This document shows positions 20,171 to 23,842 of a stretch of 43,175 nt of DNA, piece by piece. The stretch is from Bryobacterales bacterium (GTDB lineage: Bacteria; Acidobacteriota; Terriglobia; Bryobacterales; Bryobacteraceae). The first letter of the stretch is position 1, and each line of letters opens with the position of its first letter. Made by a program: the position numbers and the translations under genes. The DNA lies in assembly GCA_003167255.1 (NCBI GenBank), contig PMTR01000006.1, positions 55,376 through 98,550 on the forward strand. The letters run 5' to 3'. The notes below the pieces were generated by a model. It had not been told where the DNA came from and searched no databases. It worked only from the letters and a program-made list of their open reading frames with translations.

Positions 20171-20845
20171 TTACGAGCGGCGGCGCTTCAGCCAGGCGAG
20201 CCACAGGCCCGCGCCAAGGAACAACGCGCCCGTGCCCGGTTCCGGAACTGTTCCCGGACCTTCGGACAGAGTGCCCTCAACCACGAACCGTGTGCCGGAG
20301 ATTCCCCCGTTTGCCCAGTATGATCCGGGATCCGATACTCCCGCGCCGACAAAGTACGACACGCCAGGCAGGTCGCTGTCCGAGCCTGGCGCGAGGGCGT
20401 TCCCGGTCGCTCCGAAGCGGCCGCCGCCGAAAATAAGTGCGTAGTATCCGGGCCCCAGCGTGACCGGCAGCGCCACCCGAATGTCGGCGCTGGAACTCGG
20501 AACCGTGAACGTGGCGCTGGCGAGCGGCGTAAAACTGCCCGGAGTGCTGGGGAACGCCGCCGGCCCGCCGATGGCGGCAATCGCAGCGAAGATGGTCCCA
20601 TTTGGCGCCGGGCCGACCGAGACAAAGTCGCCCCCGACGGCCGTTACATTGTAGGTGTCCAGAAGCTGGAAACGGACCGCCAGATCCGAGCCGCCGGCGA
20701 TATCCCATCCATTGCCCCAGCTCAGTCCGGTCGGCCCCAGAGTTGCCGATTGGAAAATGATCCCCGCATGCGCTGGCACGCATGCTAAGAGACCTAACGC
20801 CATTGTCCAACGCAGGAGTTTACTTCTTATATGGGAATGCTTCAT
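20171..20845 (-). CDS. PEP-CTERM exported protein
   Basis: 224 residues from ATG 20845, with AAAGGA upstream. Signal peptide MKHSHIRSKLLRWTMALGLL, cut after PAHA. The middle is a Gly/Ser/Pro-rich beta domain (about 30-195): IIFQSATLGPTGLSWGNGWD, TFTVPSSSADIRVALPVTL, GPGYYALIFGGGRFG. The C-terminus is the sorting signal VPEPGTGALFLGAGLWLAWL followed by KRRRS: PEP motif, hydrophobic helix, basic tail. Such signals are processed by an exosortase and mark extracellular or exopolysaccharide-associated proteins. No exosortase is in the window. It is the last gene of a four-gene minus-strand block, 95 bp after the DNA-binding/FG-GAP fusion. Confidence 0.88.
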   Translation of the reverse strand: MKHSHIRSKLLRWTMALGLLACVPAHAGIIFQSATLGPTGLSWGNGWDIAGGSDLAVRFQLLDTYNVTAVGGDFVSVGPAPNGTIFAAIAAIGGPAAFPSTPGSFTPLASATFTVPSSSADIRVALPVTLGPGYYALIFGGGRFGATGNALAPGSDSDLPGVSYFVGAGVSDPGSYWANGGISGTRFVVEGTLSEGPGTVPEPGTGALFLGAGLWLAWLKRRRS

Positions 20846-20940
20846 CAGATGAGTCCTTTCCCCATCGATTCTCACGTGCCCTGCGCCAAAGCGAGAGCGA
20901 CATAGTGCGACAGAAGTGCGACTCTGGCGGTTTCTTCGAT

Positions 20941-22251
20941 TCAGAACCGCCAGAACCGCGACAACTCGGGGCTGTTGCCATCGGGCGCGGCAGGGAAGGC
21001 GACCACCTTTCCCAAGAGGGCGATCTCGGCGGCGCTCAAGGGGTGGTCCAGCAAGTGCTGACGGTAGTAACGCTCATGCACGGCCGCAAAGTTGTCGGAG
21101 AGGCGAAATTCCACAACATTAAGGTTGAGATCAAGATAGTAGATGATCGCGCTGGACTCGGGTGCGGTAGTTTCCAGCAGGATGCGGTCGTGCGGATCAA
21201 CCGCCATGCTCGCTATCCGGGGCAGCCAGCCGGCTGCACGCCCGGTGTCGGGCAGGGGGAACAAGCGGTAGGCCAATTCGCCGCCTCCCGTCGCGGGCGG
21301 AAACGGGTCGCCGGCCGGCACAGGGTGGCGCGGAGCGGCGGAAAATGGCAGTTTCAACACCGCCAGCGCGACGTGGCCCAGACCCTCACCGGGATTGTTG
21401 ATGGCGCCAAGCAGAACCTCGTCTTGCCCGTCGTAGTCCAGGTCGTGCAGGATGCACTCATAGATCGCTCCCGGGTGCCAGTACTCCTCCAGCAGCCGGC
21501 CGGTTCGTGGATCGAGCAGGGCAACCTGCGAGGGATACCAGATGAAATGGTTGGCCACCGTGAGCAGGCGCGGCGCGCCGTGCACCCGGACGGCGCGCAA
21601 TAGGTTGCCGCGGTAAGTGGGCGCGAAGGTGCGGTTGCCGAAGGTTTTCGAAACGCCGTATCGGTATTGCCAGCGTAGGCTGCCTCGATGGTCGAAGCAC
21701 ATAACCGATCCGCCCTTTTCCGCCACATCGGCGGGGACGTAGTTGAGGACCACCTCCGCACGCCCATCGCCGTCGATGTCGGCGATCAACACCTTGTCTT
21801 GCGTCTCCACCTCAAATCTCGGGTCGAACGGCGGCAGATGCTTCTCCCAGCAGAGGCGATGGTGAGCATCCTCGATCAACAGGTGCCCGCCGGCAAACCG
21901 CCAGCTATGCGGGACGCGTGCCGGCCAAATACCAGTTTGCCAGCAGACGATAGCGGCCACTGCGGCGGCGGCCAAAGCGCCCGCGGTAACACGGAGCCAT
22001 GTCCAGCGGCGAACCGGCGGGGTGGCGTCGCCGGCGTCGCCCAACGCCATGGCGCCCTGCTCCAACCACTTCTGGAGCTCATCGGTATAGGCGAAGACGC
22101 GCGCCTTCCGGCCGCCGCCCTGGCGATGGACCGGTAGACCCGCCTGTTTTTCCCACCGCTCGACCGAGCGGACCGTTACGCCCAGGCACTCCGCAATCTC
22201 CTTCCAAGTGCGAAGGAGTCTGCGCTTGGGGACTTCCTTGAGTACTGCCAA
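20941..22251 (-). CDS. Fusion of DNA-binding helix-turn-helix, transmembrane helix and extracytoplasmic FG-GAP domain
   Basis: 436 residues from TTG 22251, supported by AAGGGG at a good distance. Residues 10-65 are a MerR/excisionase-like helix-turn-helix (LLRTWKEIAECLGVTVRSVE, then RWEKQAGLPVHR and the wing ARVFAYTDELQKWL). Residues 84-106 are one transmembrane helix (WLRVTAGALAAAAVAAIVCW). The outer part has FG-GAP/VCBS-like calcium loops: DIDGDGRAE (158-166) and DLDYDGQDE (270-278), with blades such as GSVMCFDHRGSLRWQY. By topology this is a one-component membrane regulator: DNA-binding inside, beta-propeller-like sensor outside. The HTH type is found in acidobacterial fusions with TPR or WD-like domains. 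The FG-GAP partner is less familiar to me. It sits between PEP-CTERM genes. Confidence 0.8.
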   Translation of the reverse strand: MAVLKEVPKRRLLRTWKEIAECLGVTVRSVERWEKQAGLPVHRQGGGRKARVFAYTDELQKWLEQGAMALGDAGDATPPVRRWTWLRVTAGALAAAAVAAIVCWQTGIWPARVPHSWRFAGGHLLIEDAHHRLCWEKHLPPFDPRFEVETQDKVLIADIDGDGRAEVVLNYVPADVAEKGGSVMCFDHRGSLRWQYRYGVSKTFGNRTFAPTYRGNLLRAVRVHGAPRLLTVANHFIWYPSQVALLDPRTGRLLEEYWHPGAIYECILHDLDYDGQDEVLLGAINNPGEGLGHVALAVLKLPFSAAPRHPVPAGDPFPPATGGGELAYRLFPLPDTGRAAGWLPRIASMAVDPHDRILLETTAPESSAIIYYLDLNLNVVEFRLSDNFAAVHERYYRQHLLDHPLSAAEIALLGKVVAFPAAPDGNSPELSRFWRF

Positions 22252-22291
22252 ACGCGCCCCTTAATGGCCAATACCGGCCAAAAAGACTTTT

Positions 22292-22837
22292 CTATCGCTT
22301 TATACCATATGGCGGGATGCCGTACCGGGATCGGAAATCAGGCTGCATCGTTCCGCTCACGGACGCCGCCCAATCGAGTCCCGCGTGCACTGCCAACCTC
22401 GCCGCGATTTTTGCCGCCCCTTCCGCCGGAAACGGCGCCGTCTTGCGCTTCTCCAGATCGGCAAATGCATTGATGCATTCGAGCGTGGCCGCCAGCTTCC
22501 CCCGAGTGTCGTCCACCAGAAACATCAGGTAATGGATCCGCTTGGACGAAGATCCCACGAATCGCACATATACCGTGACAAGGTCTCCCGGCATTACTTC
22601 GTTTAAGTAGTGAATGTGGTGTTCCAGGTCCATCGTGCCGGTGTGATGGGCGGCGTGGTATTCCGGCGTCAGTCCCATCCACTCGTGCAGCGTATCGCTC
22701 GCGTCGTCGAACAGCGCCAGGTACCAGCGCACGTTCATGTGCCCGTTGCTGTCGCGGTACCCTTCCGGAACCGCCGCCCGAAGGCACACCGGCTCCAGCG
22801 CGGTAATCTGCTCCAATGCGATATGCGGCGGCTTCAA
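22292..22837 (-). CDS. Hotdog-fold acyl-CoA thioesterase-like protein
   Basis: 181 residues from TTG 22837, whose bases overlap the stop of the upstream PEP-CTERM gene (TTGA). YRDSNGHMNVRWYLALFDDA is the 4HBT-type active-site and long-helix signature (D-x-N-G-H-M-N). Next comes HHIHYLNEVMPGDLVTVYVRF, then KRIHYLMFLVDDTRGKLAATLE, the usual five-strand hotdog order. The family hydrolyses acyl-CoA or betaine/carnitinyl-CoA-type thioesters in the cytoplasm. No start other than TTG is available before residue 34. The tight coupling to an exported surface protein is unusual. The substrate cannot be inferred. Confidence 0.82.
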   Translation of the reverse strand: MKPPHIALEQITALEPVCLRAAVPEGYRDSNGHMNVRWYLALFDDASDTLHEWMGLTPEYHAAHHTGTMDLEHHIHYLNEVMPGDLVTVYVRFVGSSSKRIHYLMFLVDDTRGKLAATLECINAFADLEKRKTAPFPAEGAAKIAARLAVHAGLDWAASVSGTMQPDFRSRYGIPPYGIKR

Positions 22838-23595
22838 AGCTTCGCGGACCTGCCCCCAAGCATACCAATCTTGCGCCGCCCGACGAGTCCGAGCGCCGCC
22901 AGCGCCGTGCCCGCCAGCACCAGCGTGGAAGCCTCCGGCGCCGGCTGCGGCCCGCCATCATTCGGGAATTCCGGGCCCTCCAGCATCTGCGCCGGACTGC
23001 CGTTGCTCAGGTTCACATTCACGTATACGAAGGCGTCGCCGGAGCTCATGCCCTGACTGAGAGCTTCATAATACTCGGCCCAGTACAACACCGCGGGGTC
23101 CGTGGGATTCGCCGCGCTCGCCTGTTGCACCGATCCCAACGAGAATCCGTCCCCGCCGTCCTCCCTAATGTCCCAGACCGCCAGTTGCAGTCCCGCGCCC
23201 TGTGCCGGTGACGCCGGTGCGTTCGGCGCCGCCATAATCCCCGGCAGCGCGTTGTCGATCAGCCACGACACCCGGTCCAGGCTCCCGCCTCCCACCTCGT
23301 CCGGCGTCACCACGCTCGTTCCGTACATCTGATTCAGGTAGATGTCGGTGAACAGTTGCACGCACAAGGTGTCGCGGTTGAACACTCCCGCCGAGTCGGT
23401 AAGCTGGATCAAGATCACTCCCGCGAAAAACGCAGGCACGTCTTGGCCGTTCTCCCCGATCCAGACGTTGTACTCCCCGGCACTTGTATCTACACCGGTT
23501 GCGACAAGCGTATCGGCCGCTGCAATCCCGCACAGCACTGTTGCGGCTGTAACCAGCATCGTGGCCCGCCGCGCTACTATGGATAAGTTCTTCAC
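22834..23595 (-). CDS. PEP-CTERM exported protein with thioester-domain-like motifs
   Basis: 253 residues from GTG 23595, which gives a clean signal peptide (VKNLSIVARRATMLVTAATV, cut near AAADT); a TTG at 23628 and an ATG at 23559 are alternatives. The core has a Cys-hydrophobic pattern CVQLFTDIYL (about 96), RVSWLIDN and GLQLAVWDI. Together these resemble the Cys-Gln thioester-forming domains of some surface adhesins (Cys in the first motif, Gln in LQLAxW). The C-terminus is the sorting signal: PAPEASTLVLAGTALAALGL, then VGRRK. If the thioester forms, the protein could bond covalently to host or matrix molecules. That is inference from motif spacing. It is the first gene of the block and its stop overlaps the thioesterase start. 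Confidence 0.78.
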   Translation of the reverse strand: MKNLSIVARRATMLVTAATVLCGIAAADTLVATGVDTSAGEYNVWIGENGQDVPAFFAGVILIQLTDSAGVFNRDTLCVQLFTDIYLNQMYGTSVVTPDEVGGGSLDRVSWLIDNALPGIMAAPNAPASPAQGAGLQLAVWDIREDGGDGFSLGSVQQASAANPTDPAVLYWAEYYEALSQGMSSGDAFVYVNVNLSNGSPAQMLEGPEFPNDGGPQPAPEASTLVLAGTALAALGLVGRRKIGMLGGRSAKL

Positions 23596-23842
23596 GGTTC
23601 GAGTATAAATTTTCCCAAAATGCCGCAAAAGTCATAGTCGGCCTAGAGGTACGGAATCCGGCCATTTTCCTGCATTTCCACAGTTAACACCGCCGGTTTA
23701 TCGATCTCCATTAAAATCAGAAAGATAGCGGCCTGGTTCACTTTGGTAACCATTCCCCGGTACTTGCCATCCGGAACGTACACCCAGCGATGTTATCGGG
23801 TGTTTCCCTGAGCTTGGCTAACCCCGCGGACCCGCCCCCTGC

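Follow-up and report, generated by a model that had tools for sequence, protein, structure and literature searches.

The thioester domains (TEDs) of Gram-positive surface proteins are reported to carry an internal Cys-Gln bond when produced in E. coli, and the TED of SfbI to react with a Lys of fibrinogen (PMC4450167); the same paper describes a PSI-BLAST survey of 2015 that placed TEDs exclusively in Gram-positive bacteria. For proteins with a PEP-CTERM tail, processing by EpsH/exosortase in exopolysaccharide-making bacteria has been proposed (PMC1569441). Here we describe a locus of a Bryobacterales bacterium (Acidobacteriota) at which these two traits appear to be joined in one protein. The window, by which we mean the whole stretch of 43,175 nucleotides that was analysed (contig PMTR01000006.1, positions 55,376 to 98,550), holds a set of four genes on the minus strand, gene 1 (22834-23595), gene 2 (22292-22837), gene 3 (20941-22251) and gene 4 (20171-20845), flanked by genes that we take, from their translations rather than by domain scan, to be comEC and pheT. 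Gene 1 is a real and fairly surprising domain finding within an otherwise ordinary genus-level gene neighbourhood: judging by predicted fold, by motifs and by Pfam TED matches in its relatives, the encoded protein is a TED followed by a PEP-CTERM tail, and this surface protein very probably carries a self-made reactive thioester bond.

The gene 1 family and its predicted thioester domain

The following features were assigned to gene 1.

22834-23595, minus strand: gene 1, predicted exported TED protein with a PEP-CTERM tail (open reading frame, TED fold, PEP-CTERM match)
22969-23517, minus strand: TED core, residues 1-183 of the folded piece (AlphaFold model and structural comparison)
23362-23364, minus strand: predicted thioester Cys codon, C52 of the folded piece (invariant in 35/35 aligned rows; codon checked)
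23185-23187, minus strand: Gln codon of LQLAVWDI (Q111), in a central-helix TQxxPhiW-type motif (alignment, literature motif, helix 103-120)
22987-22989, minus strand: Gln codon of AQMLEG (Q177), predicted bond-forming Gln (invariant in 35/35 rows; level with Gln267 of CpTIE)
22870-22944, minus strand: PEP-CTERM sorting tail of gene 1 (PF07589, residues 229-253 of the scanned frame)

Relatives of gene 1 in other genomes have in common a Cys, a QxAxW motif and a late Gln; from one comparison of such relatives the rows G005c, G014 and G005d were removed, their coordinates being wrong or truncated. Species genomes were scanned with a pattern of the QxAxW stretch alone, which gave 38 loci from members of the Acidobacteriota, Armatimonadota and Planctomycetota and from one archaeal metagenome-assembled genome (MAG). 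Our alignment A2 joins the window protein to 34 of these loci (35 rows) and leaves out L088, L089 and L101, the translations of which begin after the Cys, as well as L095, which is without a PEP-CTERM tail. Cys52, Gln111, Ala113, Trp115, Gly128 and Gln177 are invariant in 35/35 rows; a seventh invariant column, Pro190, corresponds to the PEP-motif Pro of the relatives and is no evidence for the window protein, since the window row ends just before that motif. Because the search pattern held QxAxW, the conservation of Gln111, Ala113 and Trp115 arises by construction; Cys52, Gly128 and Gln177 lie outside the pattern, yet are invariant in a family that is very diverse (mean column identity 26%). 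The Cys motif of the window protein reads LCVQ, and across the 35 rows the letters around the Cys vary. Exactly one Cys falls within the domain in 34 of the 35 rows, so that disulfide formation does not in general explain why this Cys is conserved. We also chose 19 further genes, mostly more divergent, by hand from profile-search matches and judged them by eye: all 19 retain the Cys and the late Gln, 17 retain the helix Gln, and the C-terminal tail is PEP-type in 18 and VPDSG-like in one.

The fold of the window protein (residues 1-192) was predicted by AlphaFold from alignment A2 with a pLDDT of 94.5 and a pTM of 0.90. When the model was compared with solved structures using VIA-align, 12 TED entries scored Z 8.6-12.3 (145-169 aligned residues, rmsd 3.3-4.1) and the next entry scored 3.4. 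Of these 12, eleven are Cpa or have thioester domain or TIE protein in their titles; the remaining one, 5dcq, bears the title adhesin FNE and is counted here as a TED. The 16 top chains returned by Foldseek were likewise TED proteins. An Armatimonadota relative (L096), folded from an overlapping alignment (pLDDT 96.2, pTM 0.92), gave 10 TED entries, 5dcq included, at Z 9.2-13.5 with the next at 3.1, and its 10 top Foldseek chains were TED proteins. Both models show the beta-barrel plus helical bundle of the TED fold, and the Pfam TED family PF08341 matches 24 of the 35 members at E<=1 (best 1.4e-6). An earlier, sequence-only reading of this DNA had proposed a Cys-Gln thioester domain from the motifs CVQLFTDIYL and LQLAVWDI, both of which are present in the gene 1 protein, and had suggested a structure prediction; the prediction now run returns a TED fold, and the domain itself is upheld by fold, motifs and the Pfam matches of relatives. 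The bonding role implied for the Gln of LQLAVWDI is unlikely.

That Gln was rejected as bond partner on the literature motif and on spacing: it lies 59 residues from the Cys, versus 125 for the late Gln, and the known class I Cys-Gln pairs are given as 129, 152 and 153 residues apart (PMC4450167). Sequences of the TQxxPhiW type, to which LQLAVWDI belongs, are described as a central-helix motif of TEDs that is dispensable for the bond (PMC4450167, PMC6194298), and in our model LQLAVWDI is located in helix 103-120. The most likely partner of the Cys, as predicted from the sequence, is the late Gln of AQMLEG. Across the 35 rows it stands 109-159 residues from the Cys (median 114), and the alignment ranges to CpTIE end at 185<->275 for gene 1 and at 167<->273 for L096, which puts it level with Gln267, the bond-forming Gln of CpTIE (PMC4450167); this match follows from the range ends and not from a residue-by-residue alignment. 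The late-Gln motif Phi-Q-zeta-Phi-Phi, itself described as weak, is present, and the letters AQMLE of the window protein fit it loosely.

Sorting tail, exosortase and kinship with known thioester proteins

Read from its GTG start at 23595, which aligns with an ATG in the other member of the genus (G001; the source genome is G000), gene 1 encodes a good-looking signal peptide and a tail of PEP motif, transmembrane (TM) segment and basic end, both judged by eye and both features of exosortase substrates. The tail reaches 17.5 bits with PF07589 (cut-off 20.7), and no TIGR02595 match is listed. Gene 4 scores 25.1 bits with TIGR02595 (cut-off 16) and 15.3 with the Pfam model (cut-off 20.7), so that the two PEP-CTERM proteins named by the sequence-only reading can be recognised, one over the TIGR02595 cut-off and one below threshold in Pfam. 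Among the A2 rows, 32 of 35 have a PEP-CTERM match at E<=1 (the window row ends before the tail), and in the 34 tail-bearing rows the PEP motif comes 6-26 residues after the late Gln, too close to accommodate a stalk. NF038129 matches the tail, with an extension of up to about 45 residues ahead of it in some members, at scores far under its cut-off. The source genome encodes an exosortase (G000:C49, E 3e-72). A tail-free TED profile (A3) matched 12 of 61 genomes, the source genome included and some matches being partial; 10 of these 12 have an exosortase, as do 37 of the 61 overall, but since nearly all genomes of the family have one, this overlap says little. The full profile, with the tail included, matched 52 of 297 genomes of the phylum; many of these matches are PEP-CTERM tails alone, and we therefore did not use this figure as a TED count.

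Three observations belong beside this survey. The source genome holds a second, divergent TED-like gene with a PEP-CTERM tail (C107:145602-146123; locus L113, 4555-5220). A PEP-CTERM gene with the helix motif occurs in a Methanoregulaceae archaeal MAG (L101, 4642-5010) and could be contamination. A TATACT at 23602-23607 is separated by six bases from the GTG that starts gene 1 and also precedes the gene in G001, and the transcript is perhaps leaderless. A 46-codon open reading frame at 23643-23783 was rejected as a gene, having no match in G001 or in the other loci compared.

Several results weigh against a TED sorted by exosortase. Foldseek E-values are modest (best 1.6e-3 for gene 1 and 6.6e-4 for L096), identity to solved TEDs is about 7-13%, and a profile search of the PDB sequences recovered no TED. 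PF08341 has no match to the window protein; of ten members scanned singly, none exceeded its cut-off (22 bits), which is a detection threshold and not a structural feature, and four of the ten had no TED match at E<=0.5. As regards the tail, a Fimbriimonas gene (L095, 2588-3166) has the TED-like Cys and helix motif without PEP-CTERM, and no exosortase was found in 2 of the 12 TED genomes.

Compared with the Gram-positive TEDs and TIE proteins (SfbI, Cpa, CpTIE, BaTIE; PF08341), the gene 1 family has the same predicted fold, [YFL]C-type Cys motif, QxxxW helix motif, late Gln, export signal and a C-terminal sorting tail. It differs in that the tail is PEP-CTERM instead of LPXTG and in that no isopeptide or ester stalk was found in the family; its TED adjoins the anchor rather than sitting at a distal tip, and its members come from Acidobacteriota, Armatimonadota and Planctomycetota. 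The model is also without the beta-sandwich insert of class II TEDs (a short link joins the last helix, to 154, and the strand from 162) and has only a four-residue helix before its first long helix, at the place of the extra helix of class I; for both reasons the predicted domain may represent a minimal class. With the PEP-CTERM/exosortase proteins (TIGR02595; NF038129) the family shares signal peptide, PEP motif, hydrophobic segment, basic end and an exosortase in the genome, and the TED in its globular part may set it apart from them. No report of an exosortase-anchored TED was found among the titles and abstract starts listed by text searches of open-access papers, and subscription journals could hold one; the main text of a fibrillar adhesin survey with new TED clusters (PMC9210967) contains neither 'PEP-CTERM' nor 'Acidobacteria', and protein databases may already list such TED matches. 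We give about even weight to the idea that the thioester adhesins include a third class, minimal and without a stalk, formed by the exosortase-sorted TEDs of two-membrane bacteria (Acidobacteriota, Armatimonadota, Planctomycetota), a counterpart of the sortase-anchored TIE proteins in which the bond would be set at the sorting site and the cell bonded to matrix, neighbours or surfaces.

The thioesterase, the membrane regulator and their neighbours

The remaining features of the locus are these.

22292-22837, minus strand: gene 2, hotdog (4HBT_2) thioesterase with a TTG start (PF13279, E 7e-24)
20941-22251, minus strand: gene 3, membrane one-component regulator with an HTH_17-like (helix-turn-helix, HTH) domain, one TM segment and an FG-GAP-like part (domain scans, hydrophobicity, motifs)
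22054-22203, minus strand: HTH_17-like domain of gene 3 (PF12728, E 1.8e-4, under cut-off)
21940-21996, minus strand: transmembrane segment of gene 3 (most hydrophobic 19-residue window, residues 86-104)
21754-21780, minus strand: first FG-GAP-type motif of gene 3, DIDGDGRAE (motif)
21418-21444, minus strand: second FG-GAP-type motif of gene 3, DLDYDGQDE (motif)
20171-20845, minus strand: gene 4, PEP-CTERM surface protein, no other domain assigned (TIGR02595, 25.1 bits)
22265-22280, no strand assigned: palindrome TGGCC-N6-GGCCA before gene 3, kept in G001 (sequence comparison)
20905-20922, minus strand: direct repeat GTCGCACT-N3-GTCGCAC after gene 3 (sequence search)

The joints between the four genes are as tight as had been claimed: the TTG start of gene 2 lies within a TTGA that overlaps the TGA stop of gene 1, and 40 bp (22252-22291) and 95 bp (20846-20940) separate the following pairs. 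In G001, comEC is followed by a gene 1 cut by the contig end, and another contig carries gene 2 (start missing), gene 3, a gene for a 1122-residue secreted-looking protein, one for a 189-residue PEP-CTERM protein, the counterpart by position of gene 4 (36.9% identity over 111 residues) and pheT. This order is consistent with the same block, into which two extra genes are set; the gene 1/2 joint falls in the contig gap, and the 95 bp joint is not kept.

The domain scan bears out the call of gene 2 as a hotdog thioesterase. Its domain match is that of other 4HBT_2 enzymes, with 2hlj and 5eo2 as nearest solved relatives, and it differs from them only in adjoining a TED gene, a trait limited to the genus. 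By eye gene 2 has no signal peptide, and its homology to L148 begins at residue 3. It is present in 2 of 61 genomes, the source genome and the other genus member, and in none of the 59 outside the genus at E<=1e-5; across the phylum, relatives occur in 20 of 199 drawn genomes, the source genome included, the best other match having 37% identity. This absence together with the distant best match suggests horizontal acquisition from outside the family. A role for the thioesterase on the TED bond was rejected, as a hotdog enzyme that by eye lacks a signal peptide and is unlinked to TED genes elsewhere is not evidently tied to an exported thioester.

Gene 3 was found to be the HTH-TM-FG-GAP fusion that the sequence-only reading had described, with HTH_17-like and FG-GAP-like matches all under Pfam cut-offs, a single hydrophobic segment (residues 86-104) and two D-x-D-x-D-G-x-x-E motifs. 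From these sequence features the protein has the layout of ToxR/CadC-like transmembrane regulators, namely an N-terminal DNA-binding domain, one TM helix and an outer C-terminal domain (PMC10269533), and it differs from them in its HTH_17/excisionase-type HTH and FG-GAP-like outer part. The same source reports the class Acidobacteriae to be slightly richer in transmembrane transcription regulators, and its main text does not contain the terms FG-GAP and HTH_17. The palindrome ahead of gene 3 is a possible operator or autoregulatory site; the direct repeat GTCGCACT has one match each in G000 and G001 and none in the 35 other genomes searched. In G012 and G493, three HTH-TM-sensor genes stand in tandem (L058, 6457-10611; L178, 6715-10935).

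Relatives of gene 3 at 47% identity or more occur in 10 of 237 genomes of the family, one being a fragment. The G455 locus stops at the regulator gene, and seven other loci outside the genus could be evaluated. A PEP-CTERM gene is the next gene after the regulator in the source genome, and PEP-CTERM genes are the second and third in G001; among the seven, the regulator is followed by a PEP-CTERM gene in G016 alone, a different one with an F5/8 type C domain, and by the pattern used none adjoins it in G423, G424 (where the stretch ends soon after the regulator gene), G549, G531, G527 or G488. Among loci with lower-identity regulators, 2 of 10 were flagged by the pattern, unconvincingly, and none of the other ten. 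As PEP-CTERM matches number 17-46 per genome (5 genomes counted), the PEP-CTERM neighbours of the regulator may be more than coincidence, but do not amount to a conserved module. Gene 3 may act on neighbouring surface genes in the genus.

A broader role, in which the regulator controls neighbouring secreted proteins of any type, PEP-CTERM or HExxH, with genes 1 and 2 as bystanders, is tentative, and we think it somewhat more probably wrong than right. Downstream of the regulator, on the same strand, the source genome, G001, G016 and G423 encode a secreted-looking protein; those of G001 (the 1122-residue protein) and G423 are homologous (29% identity over 567 and 40% over 233 residues) and both have HExxH, G424, in which the regulator frame is broken by three stops, retains part of the same protein, and a palindrome precedes gene 3. 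However, G549, G531 and G527 have no same-strand gene directly downstream, part of the HExxH-protein similarity is a repeat found also in other loci, and the lower-identity loci give no clear PEP-CTERM neighbour. The homologous large secreted-looking HExxH proteins beside gene 3 orthologs lie at L048 1701-5066 and L166 4518-8093, in two genera; the window block is without such a protein.

Proposed mechanism, cohesion of the locus and significance

We consider it likely that gene 1 encodes a compact, stalkless TED surface protein and that the other three genes form a genus-level neighbourhood. After export, the Cys and the late Gln of AQMLEG would self-condense with loss of ammonia to form an internal thioester, exosortase would sort the protein to the cell surface or matrix, and the thioester would form a covalent bond with an amine or hydroxyl group on its target, be it matrix, a neighbouring cell or a particle, as in Gram-positive adhesins. 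Gene 2 would be a cytoplasmic hotdog enzyme that looks horizontally acquired, gene 3 a one-component membrane regulator of ToxR-like type with a possible role in tuning the surface genes nearby, and gene 4 another surface protein.

It is improbable, in our estimate, that the TED fold has been kept while the bond either has ceased to form or is unreactive, leaving the protein a structural component of the matrix; the diversity of the family and an anchoring unlike that of Gram-positive TEDs would fit this, but both bond residues are among the few invariant ones, and it is the helix Gln that is lost, in 2 of the 19 hand-picked members.

The neighbourhood of TED genes, compared across the 38 loci, has no constant partner: the commonest families occur in 6, 6, 5 and 4 loci, and most other shared neighbours reflect local synteny of near relatives. 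We regard as very doubtful the self-contained envelope module put forward by the sequence-only reading, with a regulator that senses the surface and controls surface proteins and a thioesterase that serves the thioester protein, since the tight joints, the shared setting between comEC and pheT in the two members of the genus (one of which has a contig gap within gene 1/gene 2) and the PEP-CTERM genes after the regulator in three genomes are set against close relatives of gene 2 or gene 3 in 0 of 38 TED loci (516,387 bases, tblastn E<=0.01), a thioesterase confined to 2 of 61 genomes, six regulators without an adjoining PEP-CTERM gene and the two extra genes of G001. Judged by the refuting condition that the sequence-only reading set itself, a scattering of the four genes among related genomes, the module does not hold up outside the genus, and genes 2, 3 and 4 are a genus-level neighbourhood, not obligate partners of the TED gene.

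To our knowledge, an activity has yet to be assigned to most substrates of exosortase. Should the domains of this family form thioesters, two-membrane soil bacteria would possess a covalent chemistry of adhesion, coupled to the exosortase system, and a class of PEP-CTERM proteins would gain one defined chemical signature, a mass loss of 17 Da. This would offer a possible handle on how Acidobacteriota build their matrix and attach to soil.

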